Shown here in pieces: positions 13,968 to 34,026 of a stretch of DNA of 64,000 nt. This stretch comes from Fibrobacter sp. UWR2 (GTDB lineage Bacteria > Fibrobacterota > Fibrobacteria > Fibrobacterales > Fibrobacteraceae). The notes beneath the pieces are model-generated. The model saw only the letters and a list, made by a program, of their open reading frames with translations. It did no database searches and had not been told where the DNA came from. The stretch lies in NCBI RefSeq assembly GCF_002210285.1, contig NZ_MWQE01000001.1:62001-126000 (forward strand), given 5' to 3'. Numbering within the stretch: position 1 is the stretch's first letter; every line of letters begins with the position of its first letter. Made by a program: the position numbers and the translations under genes.

Positions 13968-13977
13968 TTGACAATAC

Positions 13978-14022
13978 GTCATCCCCGCGACATTAATGTC
14001 ATCCCCGCGAAGGCGGGGATCT
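13978..14022. repeat. Intergenic GTCATCCCCGC palindromic repeat
   Basis: GTCATCCCCGCGA occurs twice; the second copy pairs with GCGGGGAT to form a hairpin. A related element in the opposite orientation (GTCATGCCCGCG...CGGGTATC) lies at about 54508-54532, where it extends the open frame of trpCF. This is the REP-like class found in many genomes. Confidence 0.5.
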
Positions 14023-14027
14023 TTGAG

Positions 14028-14066
14028 CAAAGGAAAGCCCTCGGCAATGCGCCGGGGGCTCCTTTG
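14028..14066 (+). terminator. Long hairpin after the decarboxylase operon
   Basis: CAAAGG (14028-14033) pairs with CCTTTG (14061-14066), enclosing a GC-rich stem (AGCCC...GGGCT). It has no strong T run, so termination efficiency is uncertain. Confidence 0.5.
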
Positions 14067-14095
14067 TTGACACGGCTCCGAATAAAAAGTATCTT
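14067..14095 (+). promoter_or_regulatory. Sigma-70 type promoter of the surface-protein pair
   Basis: TTGACA (14067-14072), a 17-bp spacer and TATCTT (14090-14095) are followed by AGGAGGAG and ATG 14127. It is the best consensus promoter in the window. Confidence 0.75.
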
Positions 14096-14126
14096 CTTTC
14101 TGTTATCCGTAGGAGGAGACCATTTC

Positions 14127-17609: not shown

Positions 17610-17647
17610 GAAGTTTTAATTTGCGGCGTGTAGTGTTAGGAGGAGTT

Positions 17648-20600
17648 GTGATTTCTAGAAAGTTGTTTTTGTCTGTGGTAATCGCCATGCTGGCTGTGTC
17701 TGCGCATGCCGCGAAGGCGATTGTCTCGGAAGAGCCTGATTTTGTAGATGGCTGTTACCAGATTTCGACTGCCGCGCAACTGTACGGTTTTGCCGAGATT
17801 GTGAACGGCACGTTTGGGAACCTGACGGATTATGCGGGCCTCCGTGATAGCACCGCCTGTGGCAAGCTTACAGCCGATATCGTGGTGAACGAGAATGTTC
17901 TTGGCGCCGACGGAAACCTGAATGTGGCGGACACGGCAGAATTTGCGCCGTGGGCCAAGATTCAGCATTTCATGGGCTCGTTTGACGGCCAGGGCCATAC
18001 GATTTCGGGCCTGTACTTTTATTCTGATGATGTTGACCAGGTGGGGTTATTTTCTTCGGCGGGCTCGTATTCGGAGAATGCCGCTGCCATGGAAGTTTCT
18101 ATCAAGAATGTTCGCCTAGTAGACACCTATTTCCATGCAAGCTTTAACGTGGCCGGAATTATCGGCGTTGTCGATCGTTATGGAAAGGCTACCATCGACC
18201 GGTGCGGTGTCGACGGAGTTATCGAGGGTGAAGCGCAGGTAGGCGGTCTGGTGGGCTGGGGCATTAACAGTCTCTCTATCACCAATAGCTTTAACGCGGC
18301 CCGCGTGAGTGGGGAAGATTATGTTGGCGGAATTGTGAGTTTACTCAAGGATGCCTCGATAGCGAATGTCTATAATGTGGGCTCTATTTCGGGTGATAAT
18401 GATGTAGGCGGGATTGTTGGCATTGCTTATGGTGAGAGCGTGCGCCTAGTGAATGGATTCAGCGCCGGCCCCGTAAATGCGACATCTGATAAGTCTATTG
18501 GCGTGGGTGCTGTGATTGGAGGTGCCAACAAGTACGTCATAGAAAGGGGAACCTTCGATAATATGTTTTTCCTTGCTCCGGGAGTGGATTCGGTCGGAAT
18601 CTCCATGACGGAAGAAGAGTTTGCCAACGGTACCGTGGTCACCCTGATGCGGAATTATAGCTACGAAGGTATTGACGGCCTAGTGTGGGGCCAGGATATT
18701 GGTTCCGATCCGCTGCCAAAACTTACCGGGGTTGTCACTGGCGATGTGGCGTTACCTACGATTACGCTCAGTCTCGATACGGGTAGTGGTGAACCTTGGA
18801 CAAAGGAAATTCTTGCCGGTTACAAGTTCAGGATACCCGATATCGAACGCGAAAATTACAAGCTGATGGCCTGGCATGCCGAAAAGAACTTTGAAGACGA
18901 GCCCGTGACGCATGTTCCTGCAGCGCAGACTACCGACGTGAAATACTGGGGCCATTACGAGCGCGTGTACCGTGTGACGTTTGAAACCAATGGCGGTAAG
19001 GTGGATTCGCTGGGCGTAGATTCGTATGTCCATACTATCGGAGCTAAACTCCCGCGGGCCGTCTCGCGCACGGGATATGTCTTTGCCGGCTGGTATGCAG
19101 AAGAAGACTTCAGCGGGAACGCCGTCGATTCCATTACCGCAGCAGATGAAGGCGATAAGATTTTCTATGCCAAGTGGTTCCAGGCGAAGGTTCCGGAAAT
19201 GGATGGGAATGATTGCTATGTCATTTCGAATGCGGAAGAGCTCTACGGCTTTGCCGCCATCGTGAACGGGGCGGATGGCTTTACCCGTCAGCAAGACGCA
19301 TGCGCCGTCCTTTCGCAGGATATCGTGGTGAACAGGAACGTGCTGGACGATGAAGGTAACCTCAACGAGGCGGGAATGGCGGGATATATTCCGTGGAATC
19401 CGATTGACAGTTTCGAGGGAACATTCGACGGGCAGATGCATACGATTTCGGGCCTGTATTATAACGACCCGAAAGACCATAGTAAAAAGAAGGACGTCGG
19501 GCTCTTCGGTGCCGTTGGAGGCGAAAAGAGCTCGCCCGTTGTTATAGAGAACCTGGGCCTTGTCGATTCGTATTTTGCATCGGATGCGAGGAGTGTAGGG
19601 GGTATTGTCGCGCGCGTTCTGGAATATCGGACAATCTGGATAAGCTATTATGCCGAAATCAGGAATGTCTACAGTACATCTACCCTGGAAACTTCCGACA
19701 GCACTCTTTCTGTGGCCGGAATTGTGGGCCATGTCGACAGGGATGCGTACCTGCATATTGAAAACTGCTATAACCAGGGGGCAATCCGTGGTTACAGGAA
19801 CTATATGTCGGGGCTTGTTGGGTATTCTGGCCTTTCCGACAAGGTTGTTATGTCGAATTGCTACAATGCGAAACCCGTCAGCTATGTGGTGAGTTCGTCC
19901 GTAGTAAGCCAGCTGATTGCCTATTCGGCGCAGTTGGAGGGCGTTGCGGAGATTGTCAATAGTGTTTATATGGATTCGTCGAAAAGGGAACTCGGAGGTA
20001 TCTTGGCTCCGAGAACGCGCTTTGCCGACGGTACGGTCGCGGAAATACTGCGCGAAGGCGTAAATGGCGAAATATGGGGCCAGAATGTCGGTGTAGATTC
20101 GTTCCCGCTGTTCTCCGGGAAAATCCAGAATTCTGGTGCTATTAGGTACAACGTAACGTTCTATACCTTTGATGAAGATACGACGACTTTCTTTAATCAA
20201 TACTGGGCGGGTGTGGAAACGAAACTCCCGCAGGCACAAAGGGAAGGCATGTGGTTTATGGGCTGGTACGATAATGCCATGCTTGGTGGGGACCGTGTTT
20301 CGTACATTAAAGAATCGGATGAGGGCGATTTGAAATTCTATGCCAAGTGGGAACTGAAGACCTTTAGCGTACGCATTTTGATCAATAATCCTGATGGGGG
20401 CCGTATTACGGGCCTTAAGTCGGGTAGTTGGTATACCTATGGCGAATTGGTGTCGGTAACGGTGGAACCCTTTGAAGGCTTCTATCTGAACTATTGGAGC
20501 GACCTCAAAGGCGAAACCGAGCAGCCGCTGGTCCGTGAATTCTATGTCGATAGGGATATGACCATTACAGTTTACTTCGGCAAGTATAGCTCAAGTTCTT

Positions 20601-21070
20601 CTAGCGCGCCGCAGTCCAGCTCCAGCGTCACTTCGCCATCGAGTAGTTCCGCGAAGTCTTCTTCCAGCGTCACACCGCAGTCGAGCTCCAGCTCGACAAG
20701 TGTGTCCACTAGCAGTTCCTCCCTGAAGTCCAGCAGCAGTTCTGCCCCGAAATCGAGCAGCAGCGCGAAGTCCAGTTCTTCGGCGAAGTCTTCTTCGAGC
20801 AAGGCGCCCAAGTCGTCCAGCTCGTGCAAGAACTGCGTTGGAATGGGCCTGCCCGAAATTGCATCCGCGCCTTTGTTCAATGTAGAAGTCGCCGGACGTA
20901 CAATCCAGGTGGCGGGCGCACAAGGCTCGCAGTATGCGTTGCTCGACATGCAAGGGCGCGTAATCCGCAGGGGAGCGGTCTATGGCGCGAACTTCTCCAT
21001 CCCGGTGAGCCGTGGCGGTAATTACCTTGTCCGTGTCGGCGACCGTGTGCGGCGCGTATCCGTGAAATAA
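17648..21070 (+). CDS. Giant secreted surface protein, GLUG-like and InlB-type repeats (second copy)
   Basis: A 1140-residue paralogue of the preceding gene. The open frame begins at TTG 17621, but the AGGAGG at 17639-17644 points to GTG 17648, which gives a proper signal peptide (ISRKLFLSV...SAHA). The domain order is the same: two GLUG-like/InlB units, a third InlB-type repeat, a divergent repeat (GRITGLKSGSWYTYGE), a polyserine linker (about 20590-20823), SCKNC and the C-terminal sorting-like domain ending DRVRRVSVK. It follows the first copy by 38 bp and is probably co-transcribed. Identity is strongest in the TFDGQ blocks and the C-terminus; the middle of each unit has diverged, as expected for surface-exposed adhesins. 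Confidence 0.75.
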   Translation: MISRKLFLSVVIAMLAVSAHAAKAIVSEEPDFVDGCYQISTAAQLYGFAEIVNGTFGNLTDYAGLRDSTACGKLTADIVVNENVLGADGNLNVADTAEFAPWAKIQHFMGSFDGQGHTISGLYFYSDDVDQVGLFSSAGSYSENAAAMEVSIKNVRLVDTYFHASFNVAGIIGVVDRYGKATIDRCGVDGVIEGEAQVGGLVGWGINSLSITNSFNAARVSGEDYVGGIVSLLKDASIANVYNVGSISGDNDVGGIVGIAYGESVRLVNGFSAGPVNATSDKSIGVGAVIGGANKYVIERGTFDNMFFLAPGVDSVGISMTEEEFANGTVVTLMRNYSYEGIDGLVWGQDIGSDPLPKLTGVVTGDVALPTITLSLDTGSGEPWTKEILAGYKFRIPDIERENYKLMAWHAEKNFEDEPVTHVPAAQTTDVKYWGHYERVYRVTFETNGGKVDSLGVDSYVHTIGAKLPRAVSRTGYVFAGWYAEEDFSGNAVDSITAADEGDKIFYAKWFQAKVPEMDGNDCYVISNAEELYGFAAIVNGADGFTRQQDACAVLSQDIVVNRNVLDDEGNLNEAGMAGYIPWNPIDSFEGTFDGQMHTISGLYYNDPKDHSKKKDVGLFGAVGGEKSSPVVIENLGLVDSYFASDARSVGGIVARVLEYRTIWISYYAEIRNVYSTSTLETSDSTLSVAGIVGHVDRDAYLHIENCYNQGAIRGYRNYMSGLVGYSGLSDKVVMSNCYNAKPVSYVVSSSVVSQLIAYSAQLEGVAEIVNSVYMDSSKRELGGILAPRTRFADGTVAEILREGVNGEIWGQNVGVDSFPLFSGKIQNSGAIRYNVTFYTFDEDTTTFFNQYWAGVETKLPQAQREGMWFMGWYDNAMLGGDRVSYIKESDEGDLKFYAKWELKTFSVRILINNPDGGRITGLKSGSWYTYGELVSVTVEPFEGFYLNYWSDLKGETEQPLVREFYVDRDMTITVYFGKYSSSSSSAPQSSSSVTSPSSSSAKSSSSVTPQSSSSSTSVSTSSSSLKSSSSSAPKSSSSAKSSSSAKSSSSKAPKSSSSCKNCVGMGLPEIASAPLFNVEVAGRTIQVAGAQGSQYALLDMQGRVIRRGAVYGANFSIPVSRGGNYLVRVGDRVRRVSVK

Positions 21071-21107: not shown

Positions 21108-21114
21108 ATCGCTT

Positions 21115-21254
21115 GTTTTATAGAAATCTGCAATTTGTTTTATGGATTGCAAAAAATTTTTCTATGAAATACTGAATTGCTGAAATTTGCTTAAAATCGC
21201 CAAATTTGTTCTTTGAAAAATATTGCATCGGATTGTTACTTTATCTATTTTATT
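21115..21254 (+). promoter_or_regulatory. Cassette A control region (three element copies, inverted repeat, -10 box)
   Basis: TTGTTTTAT starts at about 21113 and again 22 bp later at 21135; a third variant (TTGTTCTTTG) starts at 21206, 71 bp further. Between them are ATTGCAAAA(AA)TTTTTC and an imperfect inverted repeat (AAATTTGC at 21183-21190, then GCCAAATTT). A TATTTT box at 21246-21251 precedes the start codon. The architecture matches cassettes B and C but the element sequence differs. Operator function is inferred. Confidence 0.6.
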
Positions 21255-21260
21255 GCCATG

Positions 21261-22112
21261 ATGAAATCAATCATTGAATATAAGGACTACCGCGAGTACG
21301 TGCTGGAATACTACCGCGAACGTAAGCGCACATCGGCGTTTACGTGGCGCGAATTTGCCAAGATAGCTGGATTCGCATCGGGGTCGTACTTGAAGCTCGT
21401 TTGCGATGGCAAGACTCGACTTCGCCTGGAGGGGGCGAAGAAGACTGCTCATGCAATGGGGTTGCAGGGCTTCGAGTACGACTACTTTATTTTGATGGTG
21501 CGCTATGAAAGCGCAAAAACTGATAAGGAGAAGAAAATGTGTTACGAGGAAATGGAGGCCCTGAGCTCGGCCCACAATGTGAAGATTTTGGGGAGCGAAT
21601 TCTTTACGTTTTATGAAACCTGGAAGCATTCCGTCGTCCGTGAGCTGGCGGTTGCAATGCCGGGAGCAAAACCGCACGAAATCGCGAAAGCTTGCAGGCT
21701 GCCGATTTCTGCTGCAGAAGTAAGCAACAGCCTCCGTTTCCTCGTAAACTCAGGATTCCTCACGGTGGATATAAAAGGGGATTACCACCAGACGAACCAT
21801 TCTCTCTCGACAGGGCGCTTGAAAGTTGTTTCTGTGGCGGTGCATTCTTTATTGCGCCAGATGGGCGAGTTCGCGCTTGATGCCCTTGATAAGTTGCCAA
21901 TCTCGGAACGTTTTTTTAGTGGTATTACCATGAGCATGACGTCCGAGAGCTATGAGAAAGTCATAGAAGAACTTGTGGAATGCCGCAAGCGTATTGTGTC
22001 TATTGTTTCGGCCGATAAGGGCGTGGAAAAAGTGTGCCGTTTGAATATGCAACTTTTCCCGCTGACGGAAAATTTGAATAGTGGAAAGTCCACGACGGGT
22101 AAAGGAGAATAA
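21261..22112 (+). CDS. TIGR02147-family putative DNA-binding regulator, cassette A
   Basis: A 283-residue protein of the second-largest F. succinogenes paralogous family (TIGR02147). The N-terminus (MKSIIEYKDYREYVLEYY) is followed by a likely helix-turn-helix (FTWREFAKIAGFASGSYLKLV, about residues 27-47) and an acidic helical middle. A second HTH-like segment (ISAAEVSNSLRFLVNSGFL) lies at about residues 155-175, with a C-terminal region ending LFPLTENL. ATG codons at 21258 and 21261 are both possible; homology to the two paralogues favours 21261. The stop is 2 nt before the ATG of the FISUMP lipoprotein, so the two are coupled. A regulatory role is inferred from HTH-like segments and the conserved upstream elements. 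It is the most divergent of the three copies. Confidence 0.8.
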   Translation: MKSIIEYKDYREYVLEYYRERKRTSAFTWREFAKIAGFASGSYLKLVCDGKTRLRLEGAKKTAHAMGLQGFEYDYFILMVRYESAKTDKEKKMCYEEMEALSSAHNVKILGSEFFTFYETWKHSVVRELAVAMPGAKPHEIAKACRLPISAAEVSNSLRFLVNSGFLTVDIKGDYHQTNHSLSTGRLKVVSVAVHSLLRQMGEFALDALDKLPISERFFSGITMSMTSESYEKVIEELVECRKRIVSIVSADKGVEKVCRLNMQLFPLTENLNSGKSTTGKGE

Positions 22113-22114
22113 AC

Positions 22115-23896
22115 ATGTTTATGCGAATGAATCATTTTTTGAGTGTGTCTGCTTTGGGTATCGCGCTTTGTGCGTGTTCTTTTGAAACGGCGGGTACAAG
22201 TGATGAAACTGAAGGCGTTGTTGCATTGGCTGACAAGAAAATTGTGGGTGCGGTGCAGAAGGGACCTTTCGTGAAGGGCTCCGACGTTGTCCTTAGGGAG
22301 ACTTCGGCAGACGGGAGCCTTGAGCCCACGGGCAGGGAATTTACGACTAAGACCATCAATGACAAGGGCGATTTCGAGTTCGACAGTCTTGAATTGGAAA
22401 GTCAGTATGCGCTTCTTTCTGCGGAAGGCTACTATACCCGCGAGGTCAATAGCCAACGCTCTCATTGTGTTTTGCGCCTTAATGCGGTTTCCAACCTGGA
22501 AAAACGTAATACGGCAAATATCAACATGTTGACGCATTTTGAATACAAGCGCGTCTTGAAGTTGGTCGAGGAGGGCAAGAGCTTCGCGCAAGCCAAGAGG
22601 CAGGCCGCAACGGAACTTATGAATGCGTTCGGTGTTGATGTTCCTGCACAATCTGCAGAAGACTTGAATATTTTTAATACCTCTTATGGGGATAGGACGC
22701 TCTACCATCTCAGCGTTTTTGTGGACAGGGACTTTTTCTATCCTCATGATGATGATGTCGATGAATGGGAATACGAACGGGATACGGCCAATATAGACTG
22801 CTCCAAGCTGCAGGAATACGTTGATTCGTTTGCGGATGATCTTGCTGAAGATGGAACTCTCAGTGATTCCCTGATAGCACCTCTTGCTGCCGAAGCGTAC
22901 TTAATCAACACCTACTTTGGCAACGTCATGTATGGTGAAGAACTGGGCTTGAAAGATAAAGATGAATACGCTCTCATGGCGGAGAGGACCTATTTCTACA
23001 AGCTGGTGCTGGACCACTATCTTGGCTTTGAAACCTGCAACGACAGCCGCTGGGGTGAATCTAGAAGGCTCGACAAGCCGTTCAGATCTTACGATGATGA
23101 TGCCGAAATGGAATATGAGAATCCCGCCTACTTCCTTTGTGATGGAACTGACTGGAAACAGACGACGAAAGGACACCTCGATTCCCTCAAGATGCCGATT
23201 CCTCACGAGTCGGGAATTATGAAGGACCCGCGCGACGGCCGGGAATACAAGACGGTAAGTTTCGAGTTCAACGGGAATAAGTATGAGTGGATGGCCGAAG
23301 ACCTGATGTACAGTATTACTCCGGAAACGCCTACAAAGGGAGGCCTTGTAAACCGTCGCCAAGCCGGGGTCTATAGCTGGGCCGAAGCTATGCGCCTTAG
23401 TGAGAGCTATATGTCGAAGCCTGTCAGGGATGGCTCGGTTGATTCGCTCCATCAGGGAATTTGCCCGGACGGCTGGCATATATCTAATAGCCTGGATTGG
23501 GAAGCCTTGGTTACCTATGTTGGAGGTGTCAATAACCTGCTCAATGAATCTTGGAAAACTGATCCCGAAACCGCGGCAGCGAAGGATTTGTTTGGAGTGT
23601 TCTATGACAGGTTCGATTTCAATCTTTACCCGATGGATAAAAAGTACTTGGACCTTTATTACCACACGTATACGGACGAATCGTTTATTGGGGATATAGA
23701 AGCGGAACGTTTAATGTGGTGGGATTACTACGAAGAGCATAAGGACACCGAAGATGTTGAATGGATCCTTGGCTACGCAAATGATTATGGCAACTACAGG
23801 GACATTAAGAATCACACTTTCGAAATCTCTATCGATTATGGAATGCCGACCGATGAACCTCGAAAGGCAGCTCGTGTCCGCTGCGTAAAGAACTAG
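22115..23896 (+). CDS. FISUMP lipoprotein with one domain, cassette A
   Basis: A 593-residue lipoprotein (AAAGGAG ribosome binding site; lipobox LCAC). Residues about 42-155 are the QKGPF module: GAVQKGPFVKGSDV, KGDFEFDSLEL, then NINMLTHFEYKRVLKLVE. The helical region that follows is longer and more acidic than in its relatives. The C-terminus (about 367-593) is a divergent Fibrobacter succinogenes major paralogous domain (FISUMP, TIGR02145) recognised by DPRDGREYKTV, WMAEDLMYS, CPDGWHISNSLDWEAL and the terminal ARVRCVKN. FISUMP domains are predicted to be extracellular; their function is not established. It is co-transcribed with the regulator upstream and followed by a strong terminator. 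Confidence 0.85.
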   Translation: MFMRMNHFLSVSALGIALCACSFETAGTSDETEGVVALADKKIVGAVQKGPFVKGSDVVLRETSADGSLEPTGREFTTKTINDKGDFEFDSLELESQYALLSAEGYYTREVNSQRSHCVLRLNAVSNLEKRNTANINMLTHFEYKRVLKLVEEGKSFAQAKRQAATELMNAFGVDVPAQSAEDLNIFNTSYGDRTLYHLSVFVDRDFFYPHDDDVDEWEYERDTANIDCSKLQEYVDSFADDLAEDGTLSDSLIAPLAAEAYLINTYFGNVMYGEELGLKDKDEYALMAERTYFYKLVLDHYLGFETCNDSRWGESRRLDKPFRSYDDDAEMEYENPAYFLCDGTDWKQTTKGHLDSLKMPIPHESGIMKDPRDGREYKTVSFEFNGNKYEWMAEDLMYSITPETPTKGGLVNRRQAGVYSWAEAMRLSESYMSKPVRDGSVDSLHQGICPDGWHISNSLDWEALVTYVGGVNNLLNESWKTDPETAAAKDLFGVFYDRFDFNLYPMDKKYLDLYYHTYTDESFIGDIEAERLMWWDYYEEHKDTEDVEWILGYANDYGNYRDIKNHTFEISIDYGMPTDEPRKAARVRCVKN

Positions 23897-23928
23897 GATA
23901 GTCTGCAACAGGAAAAAGAAGAGGGGAT

Positions 23929-23955
23929 CCCCCGCCAATCTTGGCGGGGGTTTCT
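23929..23955 (+). terminator. Terminator after cassette A
   Basis: A perfect 9-bp stem (23929-23937 with 23942-23950) has a 4-nt loop and is followed by TTTCTTGTT. Confidence 0.9.
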
Positions 23956-23971
23956 TGTTGTGCAGATTGCG

Positions 23972-24096
23972 GCATGTTCTGGGAACATGTATAGCATGTT
24001 CCAAATTGCAAAATTTTTCAAAATAAAGCAAAAAGTGGTAAAATTTGCTTAAAAACGCAAATTTTATGTTCTGAATCGTGAAAACAAACCTATATT
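23972..24096 (+). promoter_or_regulatory. Cassette B control region (three element copies, inverted repeat, -10 box)
   Basis: GCATGTTC occurs at 23972 and 23994 (22 bp apart), and ATGTTCTG recurs at 24066-24073, 70 bp after the second copy. Copy one also forms an inverted repeat CATGTTC-TGG-GAACATG (23973-23989). A perfect 9-bp inverted repeat AAAATTTGC-8 nt-GCAAATTTT spans 24040-24065. TATATT at 24091-24096 ends 7 nt before ATG 24104. The layout equals cassettes A and C. Operator function is inferred. Confidence 0.65.
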
Positions 24097-24103
24097 TGAT
24101 ACC

Positions 24104-24949
24104 ATGAAGGAAATCATTGAATACACAGATTATCGCAAGTTCATCCAGGACTACTACGATGAACGCAAGCGTTGCTCCGCTTTTTCTTGGCACGCGTTTG
24201 CCCAGAAGGCGGGTTTCTCTTCGGATGTCTACCTGAAGTATGTTTGCGAGGGGAAAAAGAATTTGAGCATCGCTTCGGCGGGCTCGGTGGCGACCGCAAT
24301 GGGGCTGGTCGGTTTCGAGTACGACTACTTTATCTTGATGGTGTCGTATGCGCATGCCAAGAGCGATACGGCCAAGCGGGCCGCATTCGAGGAGCGCTGT
24401 GCACTCGCGCAGGCCCACAAGATTCGGGTGCTCGGGAATGAAGAGTTCGATTATTTCAAGTCGTGGAAAAATTCTGTAATCCGCGAACTTGCCCCGCACA
24501 TGCCCGGCGCAAAGCCGCTCGAGATGGCGAAGGCCTGCAGGCAAAAGATTTCGGCGGCGGAAGTCTCCGAGACGCTCGACTTCTTGGTGAAGGCGAAACT
24601 CCTGAAGAAGGACAGGAGCGGAAACTACCAGCAGACGGACAAGGCCATCGTGATGGGGAGCGTAGATGCGGTTCCGGTGGCGGCACGCGAATTGCAAAGG
24701 CAAATGGGGGAGTTTGCCATCCAGTCGCTGGACCTGCCGCTATCGGAACGCATGATGTCGGGGTACACGCTTGGCCTTACGCGCCGTGCGTACGAACGCA
24801 TCAGAAAAGAAACGGAAGATTACTTCCGCCGCGTGGTGGCGATTGCGACAGAAGACGACGAGACGGAACGGGTCTACCGCCTGAATGTGCAACTGTTCCC
24901 GATGAGCGAACGCCTGGGGAAGAAAAATGAAGATAAAAAGGGGAGATAG
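24104..24949 (+). CDS. TIGR02147-family putative DNA-binding regulator, cassette B
   Basis: A 281-residue paralogue of the cassette A and C regulators, closest to C. It has the N-terminal MKEIIEYTDYRKFIQDYYDERKR block, the HTH-like FSWHAFAQKAGFSSDVYLKYV, and the second helical pair ISAAEVSETLDFLVKAKLLKK. Its end is a conserved VYRLNVQLFPMSERL. The start ATG 24104 has no Shine-Dalgarno sequence but lies 7 nt after a TATATT box, suggesting a leaderless message. It ends 2 nt before the ATG of the following lipoprotein. Differences from copy C cluster in the first HTH-like segment (HAFAQKAGFSSD versus REFARDAGFTSP), which would fit altered DNA specificity; that is inference. Confidence 0.85.
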   Translation: MKEIIEYTDYRKFIQDYYDERKRCSAFSWHAFAQKAGFSSDVYLKYVCEGKKNLSIASAGSVATAMGLVGFEYDYFILMVSYAHAKSDTAKRAAFEERCALAQAHKIRVLGNEEFDYFKSWKNSVIRELAPHMPGAKPLEMAKACRQKISAAEVSETLDFLVKAKLLKKDRSGNYQQTDKAIVMGSVDAVPVAARELQRQMGEFAIQSLDLPLSERMMSGYTLGLTRRAYERIRKETEDYFRRVVAIATEDDETERVYRLNVQLFPMSERLGKKNEDKKGR

Positions 24950-24951
24950 TC

Positions 24952-27627
24952 ATGAAAAAGTGTAGATTTATGAAAAAGGAAACGATTATGAAGTGGAATC
25001 GTATTTTAGGTTGCCTCGCTGCCGGGGCCATGTTCTGGGGCTGTTCGGACACGGGTTCCGACGACAATGGCGTTGCTGGCGGTGCTTCGGGCGATGCGGG
25101 CATTGTTGCCGTCACGGACTGGGAAGTGGCGGGCGTGTCGCAGAAGGGCCCGTTTGTCACGGGTTCTGCCGTGACGGTGCAGGAACTTGACGGCATTACG
25201 CTCAAGCAGACGGGCAAGAGCTTCAAGGGCTCCATCAAGAGCGACAAGGGCGACTTCGCCATCAAGGACATCAATCTGGAATCGCAGTACGCGATTCTCG
25301 AAGCATCGGGCTACTACCGCGACGAGATTTCGGGCAAGAAGTCTTCTGGTCAGGTGACGCTCCGCGCCTTGACCGACCTCAAGGACAGAAAGCACGTGAA
25401 CATCAACCTGCTCACGCACCTGGAATACGAGCGCGTGATGTACCTCGTGACCGAGAAGAAAAAGTCTATTGCCGAAGCGAAGGAACAGGCCGAAAGGGAA
25501 GTGCTCGCGACGTTCGGGATCGAGGGCGACTTCGCGGAATCGGAGGACTTGAACATCTTCGAGACGGGCGACGGAAATGCGGCTCTGCTTGCGATAAGCG
25601 TGCTCTTGCAGAGCGATGTCGACGTGGCCGGGCTTACCGAACGCATGGGCGAGTTCAGCATATCGCTTGCGGAAGGCGGCAGCTGGGACGATGCCGACGC
25701 GAAGACCGCGATTGCGGACTGGGCCTGCGATGTGGATTTGAAGGGGTCGCTTTCGAAGGTGCGCAAGAACGTGGAAGATTGGAAATATGCCGATACCGTT
25801 CCTGCGTTCGAGAAGTATGTGTCTAACTTCTGGTGGGACAATTACGGCCTTGGCGTTTGCAATGCGAAGCGCGAAAACGAAACCAAGCGCAACGTGAACA
25901 AGCTCAGTAAACTGTACAACGAATACTTTGTCTGTGAAGGCGGCCGCTGGGTCATTCCGGGTTACGAACCGCGTTCGAGTAGCAGTTCGAACCAGGATCC
26001 GTCCGGAATATCTTTTGGCGTCATGAAGGATTCCCGTGACGGGCAGGAATATAAGACGGTCCGGATCGGCAATCAGGTCTGGATGGCGGAGAACCTGAAC
26101 TATGCCGCTGAAGGAAGCCGTTGCTATGGCGATGACAAGAAGAATTGTGAAAAGTATGGCCGCCTGTATAACTGGGACATTGCCTTGGATACGACAAGCG
26201 AAGGGTGCGGTAAAAATTTCAATGAATGTACCTTGAAGAGCGATTTCTATCCCCGTCAAGGCGTGTGCCCCGATGGATGGCATTTGCCGGATCTTGGAGA
26301 ATGGGATGACCTTATAGAATATACTGATGATGATAGTGACGAGGAAACTTTTGGATTCAGTTTGCAGTCGTATTACTGGGACGATGATTGGGAAAAGCAG
26401 TATGGTACAGACAAGTTTGGATTCAATGCCATGCCTGCAGGCATGTTTGATAGCGGGAAATATGTAGGGCTGGATTCCGTGGCTATTTTTTGGACGTCGT
26501 CGAAAATAGTAGACGTTATTATGAATGGTTCCATCACTACCTTGAACTATGTGATGCTTGAGAAAAAATCTTCCGGGATTACGAGGTCTCGAGGTGGTGA
26601 TGTCGATTGGGGTCTCTCCGTCCGCTGCGTCAAGGGAACGGGCAATAAGAGGCCGGAATCCTCCTCCAGTATTGCTTCGTCGAGTTCCATATACGATCCG
26701 TTTGCGAAGCAGTCTTCTTCGAGCGTGCATGTGAAAAAGGATACGTTGCCGGATTTGCCCGATGAACTGGCCTTTGTCGAAAAGTATTATGATATAAGAA
26801 CGCAATACAAGGAATATGCGGATGGAAAACAGCTTGTATGGTGGGGAAGATCTCCTTCGTTTGGAGAGATCTCGGGCGGAAGAGACAGTGTTGCGTCTCC
26901 CTGGGATTCTGCGGCTTCTGCGTTGATACGTGAAGCGTCTGACAATGGATTCGAATACCTAGAAGCGTATTCCAACGACTCCCTGGATAACGAATACACG
27001 ACGGAATCCCATGTCTATACCAAGACTGAGGGGGGTAAGGTATACAAGATCATAATCACGATGGATAATGTGAGAATGGTTGTCTTGACGCGGGAAAATT
27101 GTTTCTTCTACCTGAAGGTCATTGTTTATGACAGCAATATTGACGAAGTTCCTTCGGAATCGCGGAAGGATTACAATTCTCCCCAGTATAGGGATTTGCC
27201 TGAAGACTTGAAATTTATTGATGAATCTGTTGAAACTCCTAATAGAAAAGTTAAGGATTATTCAAACGATTCGATGTGGACTTCCTGGGTTTATTCCTAC
27301 CTTACCGACGCGTATGGCACGAGCAATTGGAACGACGCCAAGAAGAAGGCCGATGAGTATGCCGAGTTGATGAAGGCTCATGGCTTCACCTTGATTAGCA
27401 AGAAGGAGTATGCGCTTGAGGAGTACGAAAATATGGGATATTCGAGCCCGATGGGATTGACGGATATCAATAGGGATAGTGAAATGGTGACATTGTACCG
27501 CTTTGAAAAAGAAGTAGACGGCTTCTATTACAAGGCAGAAGTCTATCCGAGCGCTAATTTCTGTTCGGGTCTGATGACCTGGTACGAGACCCGTGCCAAC
27601 ATAAAGATTACGATTTACGACAAGTAG
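24952..27627 (+). CDS. FISUMP lipoprotein with one domain and a duplicated C-terminal extension, cassette B
   Basis: An 891-residue lipoprotein; GGGGAG 7 nt upstream favours ATG 24952, although ATG 24988 would give a more usual signal peptide (lipobox FWGC). The QKGPF module covers about residues 58-170 (GVSQKGPFVTGSAV, KGDFAIKDI, NINLLTHLEYERVMYLV) and is followed by the helical region with GDGNAALLAISVLLQ and AIADWACDVDLKG. A CEGGRWV strand and a single FISUMP domain (about 356-563) come next: DSRDGQEYKTVRIGNQVWMA, CPDGWHLPDLGEWDDL and LSVRCVKG. After a Ser-rich linker come two related units (from about residues 601 and 748, LPDELAFVEKYY / LPEDLKFIDES) absent from the other copies. These are unrecognised. 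It is the last gene of cassette B. Confidence 0.85.
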   Translation: MKKCRFMKKETIMKWNRILGCLAAGAMFWGCSDTGSDDNGVAGGASGDAGIVAVTDWEVAGVSQKGPFVTGSAVTVQELDGITLKQTGKSFKGSIKSDKGDFAIKDINLESQYAILEASGYYRDEISGKKSSGQVTLRALTDLKDRKHVNINLLTHLEYERVMYLVTEKKKSIAEAKEQAEREVLATFGIEGDFAESEDLNIFETGDGNAALLAISVLLQSDVDVAGLTERMGEFSISLAEGGSWDDADAKTAIADWACDVDLKGSLSKVRKNVEDWKYADTVPAFEKYVSNFWWDNYGLGVCNAKRENETKRNVNKLSKLYNEYFVCEGGRWVIPGYEPRSSSSSNQDPSGISFGVMKDSRDGQEYKTVRIGNQVWMAENLNYAAEGSRCYGDDKKNCEKYGRLYNWDIALDTTSEGCGKNFNECTLKSDFYPRQGVCPDGWHLPDLGEWDDLIEYTDDDSDEETFGFSLQSYYWDDDWEKQYGTDKFGFNAMPAGMFDSGKYVGLDSVAIFWTSSKIVDVIMNGSITTLNYVMLEKKSSGITRSRGGDVDWGLSVRCVKGTGNKRPESSSSIASSSSIYDPFAKQSSSSVHVKKDTLPDLPDELAFVEKYYDIRTQYKEYADGKQLVWWGRSPSFGEISGGRDSVASPWDSAASALIREASDNGFEYLEAYSNDSLDNEYTTESHVYTKTEGGKVYKIIITMDNVRMVVLTRENCFFYLKVIVYDSNIDEVPSESRKDYNSPQYRDLPEDLKFIDESVETPNRKVKDYSNDSMWTSWVYSYLTDAYGTSNWNDAKKKADEYAELMKAHGFTLISKKEYALEEYENMGYSSPMGLTDINRDSEMVTLYRFEKEVDGFYYKAEVYPSANFCSGLMTWYETRANIKITIYDK

Positions 27628-27661
27628 CAGAAGCTCGAAGGGGAAAGAAGAGAGAAAAAGA

Positions 27662-27688
27662 CCTCGCTAGTGCGCTAGCGAGGTTTTT
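27662..27688 (+). terminator. Terminator after cassette B
   Basis: A perfect 9-bp stem (27662-27670 with 27675-27683) is followed by five T, two nt before the first cassette C operator copy. Confidence 0.9.
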
Positions 27689-27689
27689 C

Positions 27690-27812
27690 TGTATTCTGGG
27701 GATACGTTGCTTGTATTCCAAAATGCTAAAATTTGCTAAAAAGGCAAAAAGCGGTAAAATTTGCTCAAAAACGCTAATTTTGTATTCTATAAGGGTTGTG
27801 AAAACCTATATT
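27690..27812 (+). promoter_or_regulatory. Cassette C control region (three element copies, inverted repeat, -10 box)
   Basis: TGTATTC occurs at 27690 and 27712 (22 bp apart) and TGTATTCT again at 27781-27788, 69 bp after the second copy. The inverted repeat AAAATTTGC (27756-27764) with GCTAATTTT (27773-27781) has one mismatch relative to cassette B, and a further AAAATTTGC copy lies at about 27728-27736. TATATT at 27807-27812 ends 7 nt before ATG 27820. Operator function is inferred. Confidence 0.65.
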
Positions 27813-27819
27813 TATGCTC

Positions 27820-28683
27820 ATGAAGGACATCGTCGAATATACGGACTACCGCAAGTTCATCCAGGACTACTACGATGAACGCAAGCGCAGTTCGGCCTTT
27901 ACGTGGCGCGAGTTTGCGCGCGATGCCGGGTTCACGTCGCCGGTTTACCTGAAATATGTGTGCGAAGGCAAGAAGAACCTGAGCATCGGCGTGGCGGGCT
28001 CGGTCGCGAACGCCATGGGGCTCGCGGGTTTCGAGAGCACTTACTTTGTGCTGATGGTCTCGTATGCGCATGCCAAGAGCGATGTGGCGAAACGGGCCGC
28101 TTTCGAGGAACGCTGCGCATTGGCGCGGGCGCACAAGGTGCGCGTGCTCGGGAGCGAGGAATTCGATTATTTCAAGTCGTGGAAAAATCCGGTTATCCGC
28201 GAGCTGGCGGTGCAGATGCCTGGAGCGAAACCGCTCGAGATTGCGCATGCCTGCAAGCCGAAGATTTCGGCGGCGGAGGTTTCCGAGACGCTCGATTTTT
28301 TGGTGAAGGCGAAGCTTTTGAAGAAGGGCAAAAACGGCGTTTACCACCAGACGGAAAAGTCCGTGTCAATGGTCTCCGTGGATGCGGTGCCGGTGGCTGC
28401 CCGCGATATGCAGCGGCAGATGGGGGAGCTTGCGGTGAAGGCCTTGGACCTGCCGCTTTCGGAACGCGATATGTCGGGCCTTACGCTCGGGCTTACGCGC
28501 AATGCGTATGAACGCATCAGGAAGGAAATTGCGGATTTTCGCCGCCGCATCGTGGCGATTGCCACAGAAGACGACGAGACTGAACAGGTGTACCGCATGA
28601 ATCTGCAATTGTTCCCGTTGAGTGAACGCCTGGAAAAGAAAAAGGATTTAAAAAATAAGGGAGTAGAACGAGATGAAAAGTAA
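27820..28683 (+). CDS. TIGR02147-family putative DNA-binding regulator, cassette C
   Basis: A 287-residue paralogue. An ATG at 27814 is also in frame, but the 7-nt distance from the TATATT box and alignment with MKEIIEY of copy B support 27820. Segments are the same as in copy B: MKDIVEYTDYRKFIQDYY, FTWREFARDAGFTSPVYLKYV, ISAAEVSETLDFLVKAKLLKK and VYRMNLQLFPLSERL. The last 11 nt overlap the start of the FISUMP lipoprotein gene, indicating translational coupling. The DNA-binding prediction is from the HTH-like sequences; no experimental role is known to me for this family. Confidence 0.85.
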   Translation: MKDIVEYTDYRKFIQDYYDERKRSSAFTWREFARDAGFTSPVYLKYVCEGKKNLSIGVAGSVANAMGLAGFESTYFVLMVSYAHAKSDVAKRAAFEERCALARAHKVRVLGSEEFDYFKSWKNPVIRELAVQMPGAKPLEIAHACKPKISAAEVSETLDFLVKAKLLKKGKNGVYHQTEKSVSMVSVDAVPVAARDMQRQMGELAVKALDLPLSERDMSGLTLGLTRNAYERIRKEIADFRRRIVAIATEDDETEQVYRMNLQLFPLSERLEKKKDLKNKGVERDEK

Positions 28684-31138
28684 CTTGAGTGATATGTTCC
28701 GTGGTGGCATTGTTTGGGCAATGTCGTTGGCATTGGCGTCGACTTTTTTGACGGCGTGTTCCGACGACAAGGGCGTCGCGGGCGGTTCTACAGAAGATGC
28801 CGGCATCATCGCCAACTTGAATGTGGCTGGCTTGACGCAGAAGGGCCCGTTCGTGAAGGGTTCCGAGGTCACGGTGCAGGGAATCGATTGCAAGACGATG
28901 AAGTTGACGAATGAACATTTCGAGGGCAAGGTCAAGAGCGACAAGGGCGACTTTGCCATCGATGGGGTCTCTCTCAAGTCTACATGTGCCTTGTTCGAGG
29001 TGACGGGTAAATACCGCAATGAATTTACCGGCAAGGAATCTTCGGAAGGACTGACGCTCCATGCGCTGACGGATTTGAAGGACCGCAAGAATGTGAACAT
29101 CAACGTGCTCACCGAACTGGAATACGAACGCCTGATGTATCTTGTGACCGAGAAGGGCAAGAAGTTCGCAGAAGCGAAGGCGCAGGCCGAAGAGGAAGTG
29201 CTTGCGGCATTCGACATCAAGGGCGACTTCGGCAATTCTGAAGACTTGACCATCTATGAAAGTGGCGACGGAAACGCGGCACTGCTTGCCGTGAGCGTCT
29301 TGATGCAGGCGAAAACGGACGATGCGGGCCTTGCAACGCGCATCGAAAAGTTTGCCGACTCGTTTGCGGAAACGGGCAAGTGGAATGATGACAAGACGAA
29401 GGCCACGATTGAAGAATGGCAGGTGGCCGCTACGGCCGACGGAACGCTCGATTCAATCCGCAAGAATGTCGAAAGCTGGGGCTATGCCGACGTGGTGCCC
29501 GCATTCGAGAAGTATGTGGAAGCCTTTGGCGACACTGTCATCCTGAGCAGCGATTCCCTTCCGTCGTCATCCTCGACTCCGGTCGAGGATCTGTCAAGCA
29601 GTTCGGTTACTTTGGCGGTTCCGTGCAAGACTGAAACCGAAGACAATTGCGAATACGGTACCTTGACGGATGAACGCGACGGCCAAACGTACAAGACTGT
29701 GAAAATCGGTGACCAGGTGTGGATGGCGGAGAATTTGAATATTGATGCGGCGAATAGTTGTTGCTATCACGATTCCGCTGAATATTGCTCCAAGTACGGA
29801 CGTCTTTATAACTGGGCAGGAGCGATGGATGCTGAAGGCAAATGGTCTACGAACAGTGTGAACTGCCGTTACACTGGGGAGTGCTCTCCGACATATCCTG
29901 TGCGTGGAGCATGTCCCGAGGGCTGGCATTTGCCTGATTCAACAGAGTGGGGAAAACTATTGACAGCGGTTGGCGGCCTCGATGTGGCGGCTAAAATGCT
30001 CAAGTCAACGAGTGGCTGGCAAGATTGTGAAGAAGAAAACTGCAACGGCACGGACGCTTATGGATTCTCGGCGTTGCCTGCCGGCTACATGGATCGTTAT
30101 GGGTCTGCCTTTACCTACTATGAGGGTGTTAGCACGGGGTTCTATACTTCTACGCAGGTGGATAAAAACGATGCGTACCGAGTGTATTTGTACCGTAACA
30201 ATGTTGTGAATTTTACCAGTGATATCAAGGCCGACGGTTTCTCCGTTCGCTGCGTGAAGGATGACGTTTCTGCTCTGGAATCCAGCTCCGGCGTCACACC
30301 GCAGTCGAGCAGTGGCGAGACAAGCGTGTCCAGCAGTTCTGTTGAAGTGCAGCCGAACTCTAGCGAAACTGAGTCAAGTTCCAGTAGTGGCGACGACAAG
30401 ATGAATTGCTCGGCGCTTTTGGAAGGCGAAACGGACTGGAACTGGGATGTGCCGAAGGAATGTCGTTTTAATCCTGATATTGACTATGGCACCATGATCG
30501 ATACCCGAGACAACAAGCAGTACAAGACGGTGAAAATTGGCGACCAGGTATGGATGGCAGAGAACTTGAACTTTGACCCTGGTCAGGGTGGTTCTGGCGA
30601 TGCAAAATACGATTGGTCTTGGTGCCACAACAATAAAGCAGAACACTGTGATGTGGCTGGTCGTTTTTATACGTGGGCTGCGGCCATCGACTCGGTGAAA
30701 CTTGCTACCGATGCGGACAAGACGATGGACTGCGGCTATGGCAAGGAATGTGGCCTCGATTCGGCGGGCTCAGCGACCTTAATTCAGGGAATCTGTCCCG
30801 ATGGCTGGCACTTGCCAAATAACGGTGAATGGAATTCCCTGTTCACGGCTGTAGGCGGGTCAGGGAAGGCTGGCACACTTCTCAAGTCCCAGACCGGTTG
30901 GTATGGTAATGGCAATGGTACGGACGCTTTCGGGTTCACCGCGTTGTCCGTCGGCCGCAGTTACAGCTATGCCAACTTCGACTTCGATGGTCTCTATGCT
31001 TATTTTTGGAGTGCTACTGAGAACGATAGCAGCTACGCCTACGGCATGTACTTGTACTATCGCGGCGACGACGTGGGTGCAGGCCTGTTCGACAGCTATA
31101 AGAACTACGGTTTTTCCGTCCGCTGCATAAAGGATTAA
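28673..31138 (+). CDS. FISUMP lipoprotein with two domains, cassette C
   Basis: An 821-residue lipoprotein starting inside the regulator gene (AGGGAG upstream; lipobox LTAC). The QKGPF module (about 53-165: GLTQKGPFVKGSEV, KGDFAIDGVSL, NINVLTELEYERLMYLV) and helical region (GDGNAALLAVSVLMQ, SIRKNVESWGYADVVPAFEKYV) are nearly the same as in the next gene, also at DNA level. The FICD/CEGG strand seen in cassettes A and B is absent. Two FISUMP domains follow, from about residues 327 and 604, each with KTVKIGDQVWMAENLN, CPEGWHLP/CPDGWHLP and a final SVRCxKD, separated by a Ser-rich linker. There is no terminator before the next FISUMP gene, so both belong to cassette C. Confidence 0.88.
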   Translation: MKSNLSDMFRGGIVWAMSLALASTFLTACSDDKGVAGGSTEDAGIIANLNVAGLTQKGPFVKGSEVTVQGIDCKTMKLTNEHFEGKVKSDKGDFAIDGVSLKSTCALFEVTGKYRNEFTGKESSEGLTLHALTDLKDRKNVNINVLTELEYERLMYLVTEKGKKFAEAKAQAEEEVLAAFDIKGDFGNSEDLTIYESGDGNAALLAVSVLMQAKTDDAGLATRIEKFADSFAETGKWNDDKTKATIEEWQVAATADGTLDSIRKNVESWGYADVVPAFEKYVEAFGDTVILSSDSLPSSSSTPVEDLSSSSVTLAVPCKTETEDNCEYGTLTDERDGQTYKTVKIGDQVWMAENLNIDAANSCCYHDSAEYCSKYGRLYNWAGAMDAEGKWSTNSVNCRYTGECSPTYPVRGACPEGWHLPDSTEWGKLLTAVGGLDVAAKMLKSTSGWQDCEEENCNGTDAYGFSALPAGYMDRYGSAFTYYEGVSTGFYTSTQVDKNDAYRVYLYRNNVVNFTSDIKADGFSVRCVKDDVSALESSSGVTPQSSSGETSVSSSSVEVQPNSSETESSSSSGDDKMNCSALLEGETDWNWDVPKECRFNPDIDYGTMIDTRDNKQYKTVKIGDQVWMAENLNFDPGQGGSGDAKYDWSWCHNNKAEHCDVAGRFYTWAAAIDSVKLATDADKTMDCGYGKECGLDSAGSATLIQGICPDGWHLPNNGEWNSLFTAVGGSGKAGTLLKSQTGWYGNGNGTDAFGFTALSVGRSYSYANFDFDGLYAYFWSATENDSSYAYGMYLYYRGDDVGAGLFDSYKNYGFSVRCIKD

Positions 31139-31162
31139 ATTTAGGGAAAGGGAGAACAAGAT

Positions 31163-33970
31163 ATGTTCACGATGAAGGAATCTGTAATGAAGTGGGGCGC
31201 TGCTCTCGGGATGCTTGCGGTGTGCGCCATGTTCTGGGCGTGTTCCGACGACGGGTCAGATTTTGCGGGCGGTTCTACGGAAGATGCCGGCATTATCGCC
31301 AACCTGAATGTGGCTGGCGTTTCGCAGAAGGGCCCGTTCGTGAAGGGCGCTACGGTGACGGTGCAGGGTATTGACTGCAAGACGCTCAAGTTTACGGACG
31401 AAATTTTTGAGGGTAAGGTCAAGAGCGACAAGGGCGACTTTACCGTCGAGGATGTCTCGCTCAAGTCTACGTGCGCGCTGTTCGAGGTGACGGGTGTCTA
31501 CCGCAACGAAATTTCCGGAAAGAAGTCTTCGGAAAAGTTGACGCTCCACGCACTGACCGACCTCAAGGACCGCAAGAACGTGAACATCAACGTGCTTACG
31601 GAACTGGAATACGAACGCCTGATGTACCTCGTGACTGAGAAGGGCAAGAAGTTTGCAGACGCGAAGGTGCGGGCCGAAAAGGAAGTGTTTGCTGCGTTCG
31701 GCATAGCGGGTGACTTTGACAATTCTGAAGACTTGACCATCTATGAAAGCGGCGATGGCAATGCTGCGCTGCTTGCGGTGAGCGTCTTGATGCAGGCGGA
31801 AACGGACGATGCGGGCCTTGCAAAGCGCATCGAGAAGTTTGCCGACTCGTTCGCGGAAACGGGCGACTGGAACGATGGTAAAACAAAGGCCGCGATTGAA
31901 GAGTGGCAGATTGCCGCTACGGCCGACGGAACACTCGATTCTATCCGCAAGAATATTGAGGGCTGGGGCTATGCCGACGTGGTGCCCGCATTCGAGAAGT
32001 ACATCGAAGCCTTCGGCGATACCGTTATCCTGAGCAGCGATAGCAGCGAAGGATCCAGCAGCAGTTCTGAGCCTGCCGAAGGAACACTTACGGACTCCCG
32101 CGACGGCCAGACTTATAGAACCGTAAAAATCGGCGATCAGGTGTGGATGGCGGAAAACCTGAACTTTGAAACGGATTCCAGTTACTGCTATAATGATTCT
32201 GCCAAATACTGTGCAAAGTATGGTCGCCTTTATGAATGGAGTGCGGCAATGGATGCATGCCCTAGCGGCTGGCACCTGCCTGATACTGCGGAATGGAGAA
32301 CGCTGCTCGATGCGGTTGGTGGGGATTCGATTGCGGGCACGATGCTCAAGTCTACGAGTGGCTGGAATAGTGACGGCAATGGTACGGATGATTTCGGCTT
32401 CACTGTGTTGCCTGCTGGTGGCTGGGATAACAAGATGTTTGAGGGGGAAGCTGCAGGCTTTTGGAGCTCTGTAGGGTACGGAAACTATGCGGCCGCTATA
32501 CGTTTGCTCGCAGATGCCTTTGCCGTACGCCTGATTAGCGGCCGCACGTATGTCGGACACTCGGTCCGTTGTGTAAAGGGTAGTGAATACGATGCGACTG
32601 CAAATACGCTCAAGGACCTGCGTGATGGCAAGGTTTACAAGACTGTGAAAATCGGCGACCAGGTGTGGATGGCGGAGAACCTCAATTATTCAGATAGCAC
32701 GAAGACCGCGAGTCTAAAAGACAAATCTTGGTGCTACGATAATGAATCTGACAATTGCGTAAAGTATGGCCGCCTTTATACCTGGGCTGCAGCGATTGAC
32801 TCTGTTGCCTTGGCGAACGATGCAAAGGCGCCGCTGGATTGCGGTTATGGCAAGTCGTGTACCCTGCCTGCGAAAGTGCAGGGTGTTTGCCCCGATGGTT
32901 GGCATTTGCCGAACTATGATGAATGGGTAGCTATGCTTACGTCTGTGGGTTGGCAGTCAAATGAGAATAAGGTTCTCAAATCCCAGAGCGGTTGGTCCGG
33001 AAATGGAAATGGCTCTGATTCTTCCGGTTTTTCTGCGTTGCCTGCTGGTTACTATAATGGCAGTTTCAATCACGCTGGCGACGAAGCAGACTTCTGGAGT
33101 TCCTTTGATCACTATAGTGACTACGCCTACAAAATGACACTGGATAATAACATGAAATGTGATAGAGGGTGCATAAATGACGAACGGAAAAACGTCGGGA
33201 ATTCTGTCCGCTGCGTGAAGGATGGTATTGCTGTTCCTGCGTCCAGCAGTAGCGAAGTGTCTAGCCCATCATCCAGTTCGGTTGCTTTGGTGGCGCCATG
33301 CAAGACTGAAACCGAAGACAATTGCGAATATGGAACTTTGATCGATTCCCGCGACGGCCAGACCTACAAGACGGTCACCATTGGTACGCAGACTTGGATG
33401 GCGGAGAATCTTAACTATGCATACACTGATGTCCCCTATAGTTATGCAGCCTACGAATCCGATTCTACGAGTTGGTGCTTTGACAATGCCTTAGACAACT
33501 GTGCCATGTACGGTCGTCTTTACACCTGGTCCGTTGCGATGGATAGTGTGGGTGTTTGGTCTACGAAAGGAAAGGGGTGCGGTTATGACAGGACTTGTAA
33601 CGTCGATTCGACGGGCTCGGTGCGAGGCATATGCCCCGAGGGCTGGCACTTGCCTACGCAAACGGAATGGGGAACGTTATTTGCCGCTGTCGGTGGAATG
33701 TCGACGGCGGGCAAGATGCTCAAATCGACAAGCGGTTGGACAAGTAACGGCAACGGAACGGATGGTTATTCCTTTGCTGCGCTGCCTGCTGACAGCAGGA
33801 CCGCCGGTGGCGATTACCGCAACAAGGGCTACTTCACGAACTTCTGGAGTTCTTCTGAGAAAGATAGTGGCACCGTATATACCATGTCTTTGACTTACTA
33901 CGTTGAAAATGCGGACTTGACCTACAGATACAAGCCCGAGGGACTTTCTGTCCGCTGCGTGAAGGATTAA
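31163..33970 (+). CDS. FISUMP lipoprotein with three domains, cassette C
   Basis: A 935-residue lipoprotein (GGGAGAA ribosome binding site; start ATG 31163, alternative ATG 31187; lipobox FWAC). The N-terminal QKGPF and helical modules duplicate those of the preceding gene. Three FISUMP domains follow, starting at about residues 307, 479 and 722, each with TVKIGDQVWMAENLN or a close variant (TVTIGTQTWMAENLN in the third), CPxGWHLP and SVRCVKx. The first is shortened between YGRLYEWSAAMDA and CPSGWHLP. It has no regulator of its own and depends on the cassette C promoter or an unseen internal one. A strong terminator follows. Confidence 0.88.
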   Translation: MFTMKESVMKWGAALGMLAVCAMFWACSDDGSDFAGGSTEDAGIIANLNVAGVSQKGPFVKGATVTVQGIDCKTLKFTDEIFEGKVKSDKGDFTVEDVSLKSTCALFEVTGVYRNEISGKKSSEKLTLHALTDLKDRKNVNINVLTELEYERLMYLVTEKGKKFADAKVRAEKEVFAAFGIAGDFDNSEDLTIYESGDGNAALLAVSVLMQAETDDAGLAKRIEKFADSFAETGDWNDGKTKAAIEEWQIAATADGTLDSIRKNIEGWGYADVVPAFEKYIEAFGDTVILSSDSSEGSSSSSEPAEGTLTDSRDGQTYRTVKIGDQVWMAENLNFETDSSYCYNDSAKYCAKYGRLYEWSAAMDACPSGWHLPDTAEWRTLLDAVGGDSIAGTMLKSTSGWNSDGNGTDDFGFTVLPAGGWDNKMFEGEAAGFWSSVGYGNYAAAIRLLADAFAVRLISGRTYVGHSVRCVKGSEYDATANTLKDLRDGKVYKTVKIGDQVWMAENLNYSDSTKTASLKDKSWCYDNESDNCVKYGRLYTWAAAIDSVALANDAKAPLDCGYGKSCTLPAKVQGVCPDGWHLPNYDEWVAMLTSVGWQSNENKVLKSQSGWSGNGNGSDSSGFSALPAGYYNGSFNHAGDEADFWSSFDHYSDYAYKMTLDNNMKCDRGCINDERKNVGNSVRCVKDGIAVPASSSSEVSSPSSSSVALVAPCKTETEDNCEYGTLIDSRDGQTYKTVTIGTQTWMAENLNYAYTDVPYSYAAYESDSTSWCFDNALDNCAMYGRLYTWSVAMDSVGVWSTKGKGCGYDRTCNVDSTGSVRGICPEGWHLPTQTEWGTLFAAVGGMSTAGKMLKSTSGWTSNGNGTDGYSFAALPADSRTAGGDYRNKGYFTNFWSSSEKDSGTVYTMSLTYYVENADLTYRYKPEGLSVRCVKD

Positions 33971-34000: not shown

Positions 34001-34026
34001 CCCCGCTTTTTAGCGGGGCCTTTTTT
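34001..34026 (+). terminator. Terminator after cassette C
   Basis: A 7-bp CCCCGCT/AGCGGGG stem (34001-34007 with 34012-34018) is followed by CC and six T. Confidence 0.9.

Follow-up and report, generated by a model that had tools for sequence, protein, structure and literature searches.

Three genes for TIGR02147 regulators stand close together in the window, the whole stretch of 64,000 nucleotides of Fibrobacter sp. UWR2 DNA that was analysed, each followed by a gene for a FISUMP lipoprotein and each preceded by a short repeated word of its own. This raises the question whether every regulator recognizes its own operator, and what would be controlled in this way. The source genome of 3.28 Mb carries 31 TIGR02147 genes, three of which are those of cassettes A, B and C:

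21261..22112, + strand: TIGR02147 regulator of cassette A, assigned by family score; helix 3 ASGSYLKLV at 21375-21401
22115..23896, + strand: FISUMP lipoprotein (TIGR02145) of cassette A
23929..23950, + strand: terminator-like hairpin between cassettes A and B
24104..24949, + strand: TIGR02147 regulator of cassette B; helix 3 SSDVYLKYV at 24218-24244
24952..27627, + strand: FISUMP lipoprotein of cassette B
27657..27688, + strand: terminator-like hairpin, ending immediately before the first repeat (F1) of cassette C
27820..28683, + strand: TIGR02147 regulator of cassette C; helix 3 TSPVYLKYV at 27934-27960
28673..31138, + strand: first FISUMP lipoprotein of cassette C, its start overlapping the regulator end
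31163..33970, + strand: second lipoprotein of cassette C, lacking its own regulator; FISUMP-like repeats read from the sequence
34001-34018: terminator-like hairpin 3' of the second lipoprotein of cassette C

The hairpins between A and B and between B and C suggest that cassettes B and C are transcribed separately. Cassette C has two large lipoproteins with FISUMP-type repeats in tandem (28673-33970). On the 5' side of cassette A, two similar large secreted-looking proteins are encoded in tandem (13968-17609 and 17621-21070), both with internal repeats and Ser-rich linkers.

The regulators of A, B and C score 276, 330 and 330 bits for TIGR02147 (Fsuc_second, cut-off 50) and 85-107 for PF14394 DUF4423 (cut-off 30), while Pfam HTH_3 matches C only, below its cut-off (E=0.1). 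In the AlphaFold2 model of B (pLDDT 84.7) an N-terminal HTH-like pair, helix 29-35 and then helix 43-48, is followed by a winged helix around 121-177 and by C-terminal helices. The fold search with the regulator model gave no solved-structure match at E<=0.001; weak sequence matches were to 3kxa, an HTH protein, and to C.BclI. TIGR02147 occurs in 12-45 copies per Fibrobacter genome searched and in 54 of the 61 genomes of the phylum searched. One genome from another family of the phylum has 54 TIGR02147 genes, and the expansion is phylum-wide. Our literature search found no paper mentioning TIGR02147; DUF4423 is named in one Bdellovibrio paper, and word searches of papers on the S85 genome and on expression turned up no reference to TIGR02147 regulators.

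The genes downstream of the regulators in A, B and C reach 73, 172 and 379 bits for TIGR02145 (cut-off 41.65). A lipoprotein-like gene lies downstream in nearly all units of the source genome, and by a strict rule in 268 of 326. FISUMP (TIGR02145) has been counted 17 to 119 times in most Fibrobacteres genomes, and FISUMP lipoproteins have been suggested as a cohesin analogue (PMC4704652). The relevant passages of that paper deal with the lipoprotein domain only and do not mention a paired regulator, whereas the lipoproteins described here are the regulator-paired genes. Lipoproteins paired with TIGR02147 (the downstream genes of L001-L031 and of L294-L334) have a motif in common downstream of the lipobox Cys, roughly CS...(A/S)G(G/T)..E(T/D).N.IA, which is also found outside the genus and may be a sorting or interaction signal.

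The original prediction placed three copies of a cassette-specific word in front of each regulator gene. All repeat positions in A, B and C proved exact (the third copy of B being [T]ATGTTC, 24065/24066), and the spacings hold, with 22 bp from F1 to F2 in each cassette and 69-71 bp from F2 to F3. The elements are:

21113..21121, + strand: A, half-site F1 TTGTTTTAT, checked base by base
21135..21143, + strand: A, half-site F2 TTGTTTTAT, 22 bp after F1
21144..21205, + strand: A, spacer rich in A-tracts
21206..21214, + strand: A, F3, variant TTGTTCTTT, upstream of the -35
21223..21251, + strand: A, predicted class 2 promoter TTGCAT, 17 bp, TATTTT, read from the sequence
23972..23979, + strand: B, F1 GCATGTTC
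23983..23988, - strand: B, inverted half-site R (GAACAT on the + strand), forming with F1 the palindrome ATGTTCtggGAACAT
23994..24001, + strand: B, F2 GCATGTTC
24002..24064, + strand: B, spacer with phased A-tracts, common to the cassettes
24065..24071, + strand: B, F3 TATGTTC, occupying the -35 position
24091..24096, + strand: B, -10 TATATT with a 7 nt gap to the ATG; predicted leaderless mRNA
27690..27696, + strand: C, F1 TGTATTC
27700..27705, - strand: C, inverted half-site R (GGATAC on the + strand)
27712..27718, + strand: C, F2 TGTATTC
27719..27780, + strand: C, spacer
27781..27787, + strand: C, F3 TGTATTC, occupying the -35 position
27807..27812, + strand: C, -10 TATATT, with the ATG 7 nt after it

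Three direct copies are thus present, but a simple triplication they are not, since an inverted half-site and a conserved spacer belong to the arrangement as well. With R between F1 and F2 and the spacer joining F2 to F3, the element is better described as F-R-F plus F. Base-by-base reading of cassette A revealed no clear R half-site between F1 and F2.

The arrangement was followed through a set of 327 unique TIGR02147 genes for which upstream DNA was available, taken from the source genome, 12 congeners and 68 loci of a named genome collection, many of the sampled genomes being draft metagenome assemblies. Layout statistics refer to the 276 genes that carry a cassette-type HTH. A model-free spectrum of repeated 9-mers (>=8/9 bases) in the 210 bp upstream of these 276 genes has peaks at 21-22 bp (69 and 66 genes versus about 14 in shuffles), at 70-71 bp (68 and 74 versus about 8) and at 92 bp (44 versus 5). 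Chance repeats in AT-rich promoters might be suspected because the words are short and AT-rich and shuffled sequences yield a few 8/9 matches whatever the spacing; however, the sharp spacing peaks and the nulls with other genes' words refute this explanation, whose probability we consider negligible. A gene's own word recurs upstream 309 times, compared with 146 times for a threefold number of other genes' words.

A first repeat caller produced false AT-rich pairs in long-leader genes, and a spacer-plus-repeat model, with the word register seeded with TGT, was used instead. With this model a site was placed in 256 of the 276 cassette-type genes, so that within the genus the spaced repeat expected by the original prediction upstream of other TIGR02147 genes is indeed found. 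The common layout is F1, R (+10), F2 (+21/22), a spacer of about 60 bp and F3 (+70/71) next to the promoter; counted from F3, direct copies lie at -71/-70 and -92 and the inverted R at -82/-83. This arrangement of F at -92/-71/0 and R at -82/-83 (52 genes versus 1 in the null) stands out from the null, and R was found in 120/230 genes versus 9/162 when the word of another gene was used. Since F1, R and F2 are 10-11 bp apart, these half-sites lie on one face. Layout and spacer are common to the cassette-type genes, and the 7-8-bp word is gene-specific; the spacer consensus of the 256 sites, TgcTaAAATTT...tAAAAAcgcaAaTTT, leads straight into the F3 word. Autocorrelation of the spacer A-tracts has peaks at 9-10, 19 and 28-29 bp. 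The period of 9-10 bp suggests a curved spacer, and as the spacers are related by descent, the phasing counts as one feature and not as 256 independent ones.

In the other genera of the phylum with TIGR02147 genes that we examined, the 22/70 layout was not seen, and many of their TIGR02147 genes have different inverted or direct repeats upstream. Among these are the palindromes GTGTACAC, TGTATACA and GTTGTTTCTAGACAAC (loci L311, L324, L326, L329 and L335), without the 22/70 spacing. A separate TIGR02147 subfamily (L002, L294-L298) has conserved GTGTTC copies near the promoter, namely GTGTTCTCAAAxGTTC and GGTGTTCCC, which represent a second operator type.

If the regulators read these words, a change of word should go along with a change in the recognizing part of the protein. 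Helix 3 of the N-terminal HTH comprises residues 39-47 (numbered in C), and its variants are associated with different words: SPVYLKYV with TGTATTC (TATATTG in a long-leader subgroup), SAVYLKYV with TGTGTTC (in some cases TGTATTC), SDVYLKYV with TATGTTC, ASGSYLKLV with TGTTTTAT, SSGYLKLV with TGTTTCAT, SP[TSV]YLKLV with TGTATCAT, SSSYMKVV with TGTTGCAT, SP[SN]YMKVV with TGTAGCAT, SPSYLKMV with TGTACTAT and SSNYLKLV with TGTGTTAT. Residue 41 corresponds closely to base 4 of the word, with P going with A in 105/107 cases, G with T in 22/22 and D with G in 18/19. Alanine at this position is ambiguous (G in 30/53 and A in 22/53), and locus L237 combines the helix SAVYLKYI with the word TGTACAC. 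Due to these exceptions, residues besides 41 must also matter.

A per-column distance test without phylogenetic control was dropped: it ranked residue 41 second, but columns all over the protein scored as well. Because of this lack of specificity, and because operator and gene are inherited together, we adopted independent nearest-relative pairs and an identity-stratified permutation. In 114 non-overlapping pairs, the strongest associations with a changed word among the 228 variable columns are those of residues 39 (p 2.5e-6) and 41 (1.9e-5). In the identity-stratified permutation the signal is confined to helix 3 (p<1/2000), with a mean z of 2.19 compared with 0.36 for the rest of the HTH, 0.12 for the winged HTH and 0.01 for the C-terminal part. 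Under strict family-wise permutation residue 39 remains significant (p 0.0135) and residue 41 alone does not (p 0.13). With donors of <60% identity, the best helix predicts 2.61 of the 4 bases at positions 4-7, compared with 1.89 for identity-matched donors, a test whose p value is inflated by relatedness.

The words could also be bound by another factor, such as an alternative sigma factor or a global regulator, and the match with the regulator would then be inherited linkage only. Operator and gene are inherited together and relatives share both, as this explanation demands. However, the words differ from gene to gene within one genome, and in the identity-stratified independent pairs the word change tracks helix 3 and not the rest of the equally linked protein, which fits a protein-DNA contact and is not predicted by linkage alone. 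We therefore regard this explanation as very improbable. The co-variation of word and first HTH-like segment, proposed originally as a check, is borne out for helix 3 in particular. Together with the conserved layout and the private word, it makes recognition of their own operators by the adjacent TIGR02147 regulators well supported at the level of sequence.

Pattern searches of the whole genome found the spaced pair of A once and that of C once, and the palindrome of B upstream of B and in one unrelated match elsewhere. Most words are unique within a genome. GTATCAT, on the other hand, is common to 2-5 paralogs per genome, and privacy is therefore incomplete. At 80-90% identity the same word was found in 2/14 cases within a genome versus 35%, a suggestive comparison, but one that confounds paralogs with orthologs. 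The suggestion that the cassettes diversified to avoid cross-talk thus holds insofar as most words are genome-unique; it does not hold for the GTATCAT paralogs, and avoidance is inseparable from ordinary paralog divergence.

There are two promoter classes with fixed distances from F3 to the -10, 26 bp and 37-39 bp. In class 1 (90 genes, including B and C) F3 lies 26 bp upstream of TATATT and a -35 is lacking, which argues for activation. In class 2 (156 genes, including A) the distance from F3 to the -10 is 37-39 bp; a TTGAC-like -35 follows F3 by 14-15 bp, and this near-consensus element argues for repression. The classes differ by about one helical turn, so that F3 keeps its face toward RNA polymerase. 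In B and C 7 nt separate the end of the -10 from the ATG, and other class 1 genes are similar. As this short gap of about 7 nt recurs in many cassettes (e.g. 24091-24106), leaderless mRNAs are predicted to be widespread in Fibrobacter.

One possible mechanism is pure negative autoregulation by DNA looping, in which F1-R-F2 and F3 are bridged over the curved spacer and the promoter stays closed until a signal frees the regulator and the lipoprotein is made. Class 2 promoters, with their TTGAC-like -35 and TATATT -10, should not need an activator, and their upstream A-tract spacer could act as an UP element. The phased A-tracts of the spacer are also in line with looping, as is the deviation of F3: where the copies disagree, F3 is the deviating one in 40/77 resolved cases (24 and 13 for the others), as for a weaker auxiliary site. 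However, class 1 promoters would be poor unless activated, the 70-71 bp from F2 to F3 are not an integral number of turns, and the fixed phase of F3 with its shift of about one turn between the classes suggests a contact with RNA polymerase. We consider pure looping repression a serious possibility, albeit a somewhat improbable one. Conversely, cooperative self-activation could turn the cassettes into bistable positive-feedback switches, with each lipoprotein on or off per cell and a combinatorial surface. F3 adjoins or replaces the -35, there are multiple half-sites, and, as in C-protein operons, the regulator mRNA is predicted to be leaderless and the downstream gene overlaps; measurements on such operons have shown hysteretic bistability (PMC3695507). 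The consensus -35 of class 2 speaks against this explanation, which seems unlikely to us.

More probably, regulator and lipoprotein of each cassette form an operon that the regulator itself controls through a private operator, much as the controller (C) proteins of restriction-modification (R-M) systems do. Layout, privacy, helix-word co-variation and gene order are properties of the sequences themselves; from them we infer binding, cooperativity or looping, whether transcription is raised or lowered, and how the surface repertoire is affected. The TIGR02147 protein would use helix 3 of its N-terminal HTH to bind its own upstream DNA. The distal F1-R-F2, with half-sites one helical turn apart in alternating orientation, would form a cooperative and probably higher-affinity site. 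About 70 bp downstream, across A-tract-phased and probably curved DNA, F3 would touch the promoter, in class 1 in place of the -35 and in class 2 about one turn further upstream, beside the TTGAC-like -35. Occupancy would set the transcription of regulator and lipoprotein together, most plausibly by activation from the distal site and/or repression from F3, as in C proteins. Paralogous cassettes would keep the geometry and change helix 3 and word together, leaving most feedback loops private.

The dozens of units per Fibrobacter genome look like separately addressable, self-controlled switches for surface display. We speculate further that tens of nearly orthogonal, self-feeding switches are built on one scaffold of fixed geometry and exchangeable helix-3/word pairs, each committing the cell to one surface lipoprotein. 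Individual cells would then differ in their surface with no rearrangement of DNA, and duplication together with a coupled change of helix 3 and word would create new switches; we consider this scenario unlikely. The elements described here would be the first operator and a testable recognition code for the large, unstudied TIGR02147 family, and offer a way to study how the FISUMP surface lipoproteins, which are proposed to take part in cellulose adhesion, are regulated. Natural paralogous regulator-operator pairs that are few helix residues and bases apart also provide a data set on how specificity diverges among duplicated genes, and orthogonal parts might be drawn from them.

Helix 3 determines private operator specificity in immunity repressors such as lambda CI and its relatives, for which auto-activation beside the -35 and looping are known. 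The likeness is one of mechanism only, as the cassettes have no phage context, different C-terminal domains and a lipoprotein effector. Direct repeats upstream of its own operon, (GTGTTAN5)2, are also bound by HsdC, a C protein of Mollicutes (PMC5282649). In contrast to the cassettes, the HsdC repeats are adjacent, the effector is a restriction-modification system and other promoters are bound too.

The R-M C proteins C.PvuII, C.Csp231I and C.Esp1396I are likewise HTH regulators encoded first in an operon with an effector gene that often overlaps. The operator precedes the regulator gene itself; its distal site activates and its promoter-proximal site represses, and the regulator mRNA is leaderless (PMC3695507, PMC2997769, PMC4824078). 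The cassettes resemble such operons most closely, in the distal sites, the proximal site at the -35, the predicted leaderless mRNA and the overlapping effector, a likeness by site arrangement only. Membership of TIGR02147 in the C proteins is ruled out by size and by the type of neighbouring gene: a C protein is a small stand-alone HTH of ~80 aa encoded beside restriction/methylation genes, whereas TIGR02147 proteins comprise ~280 aa, including a winged helix and C-terminal helices, and are partnered by a lipoprotein-like gene in nearly all units. Unlike in C-protein systems, a phased A-tract spacer sets the sites of the TIGR02147 cassettes ~70 bp apart, and 12-45 members coexist in each Fibrobacter genome.
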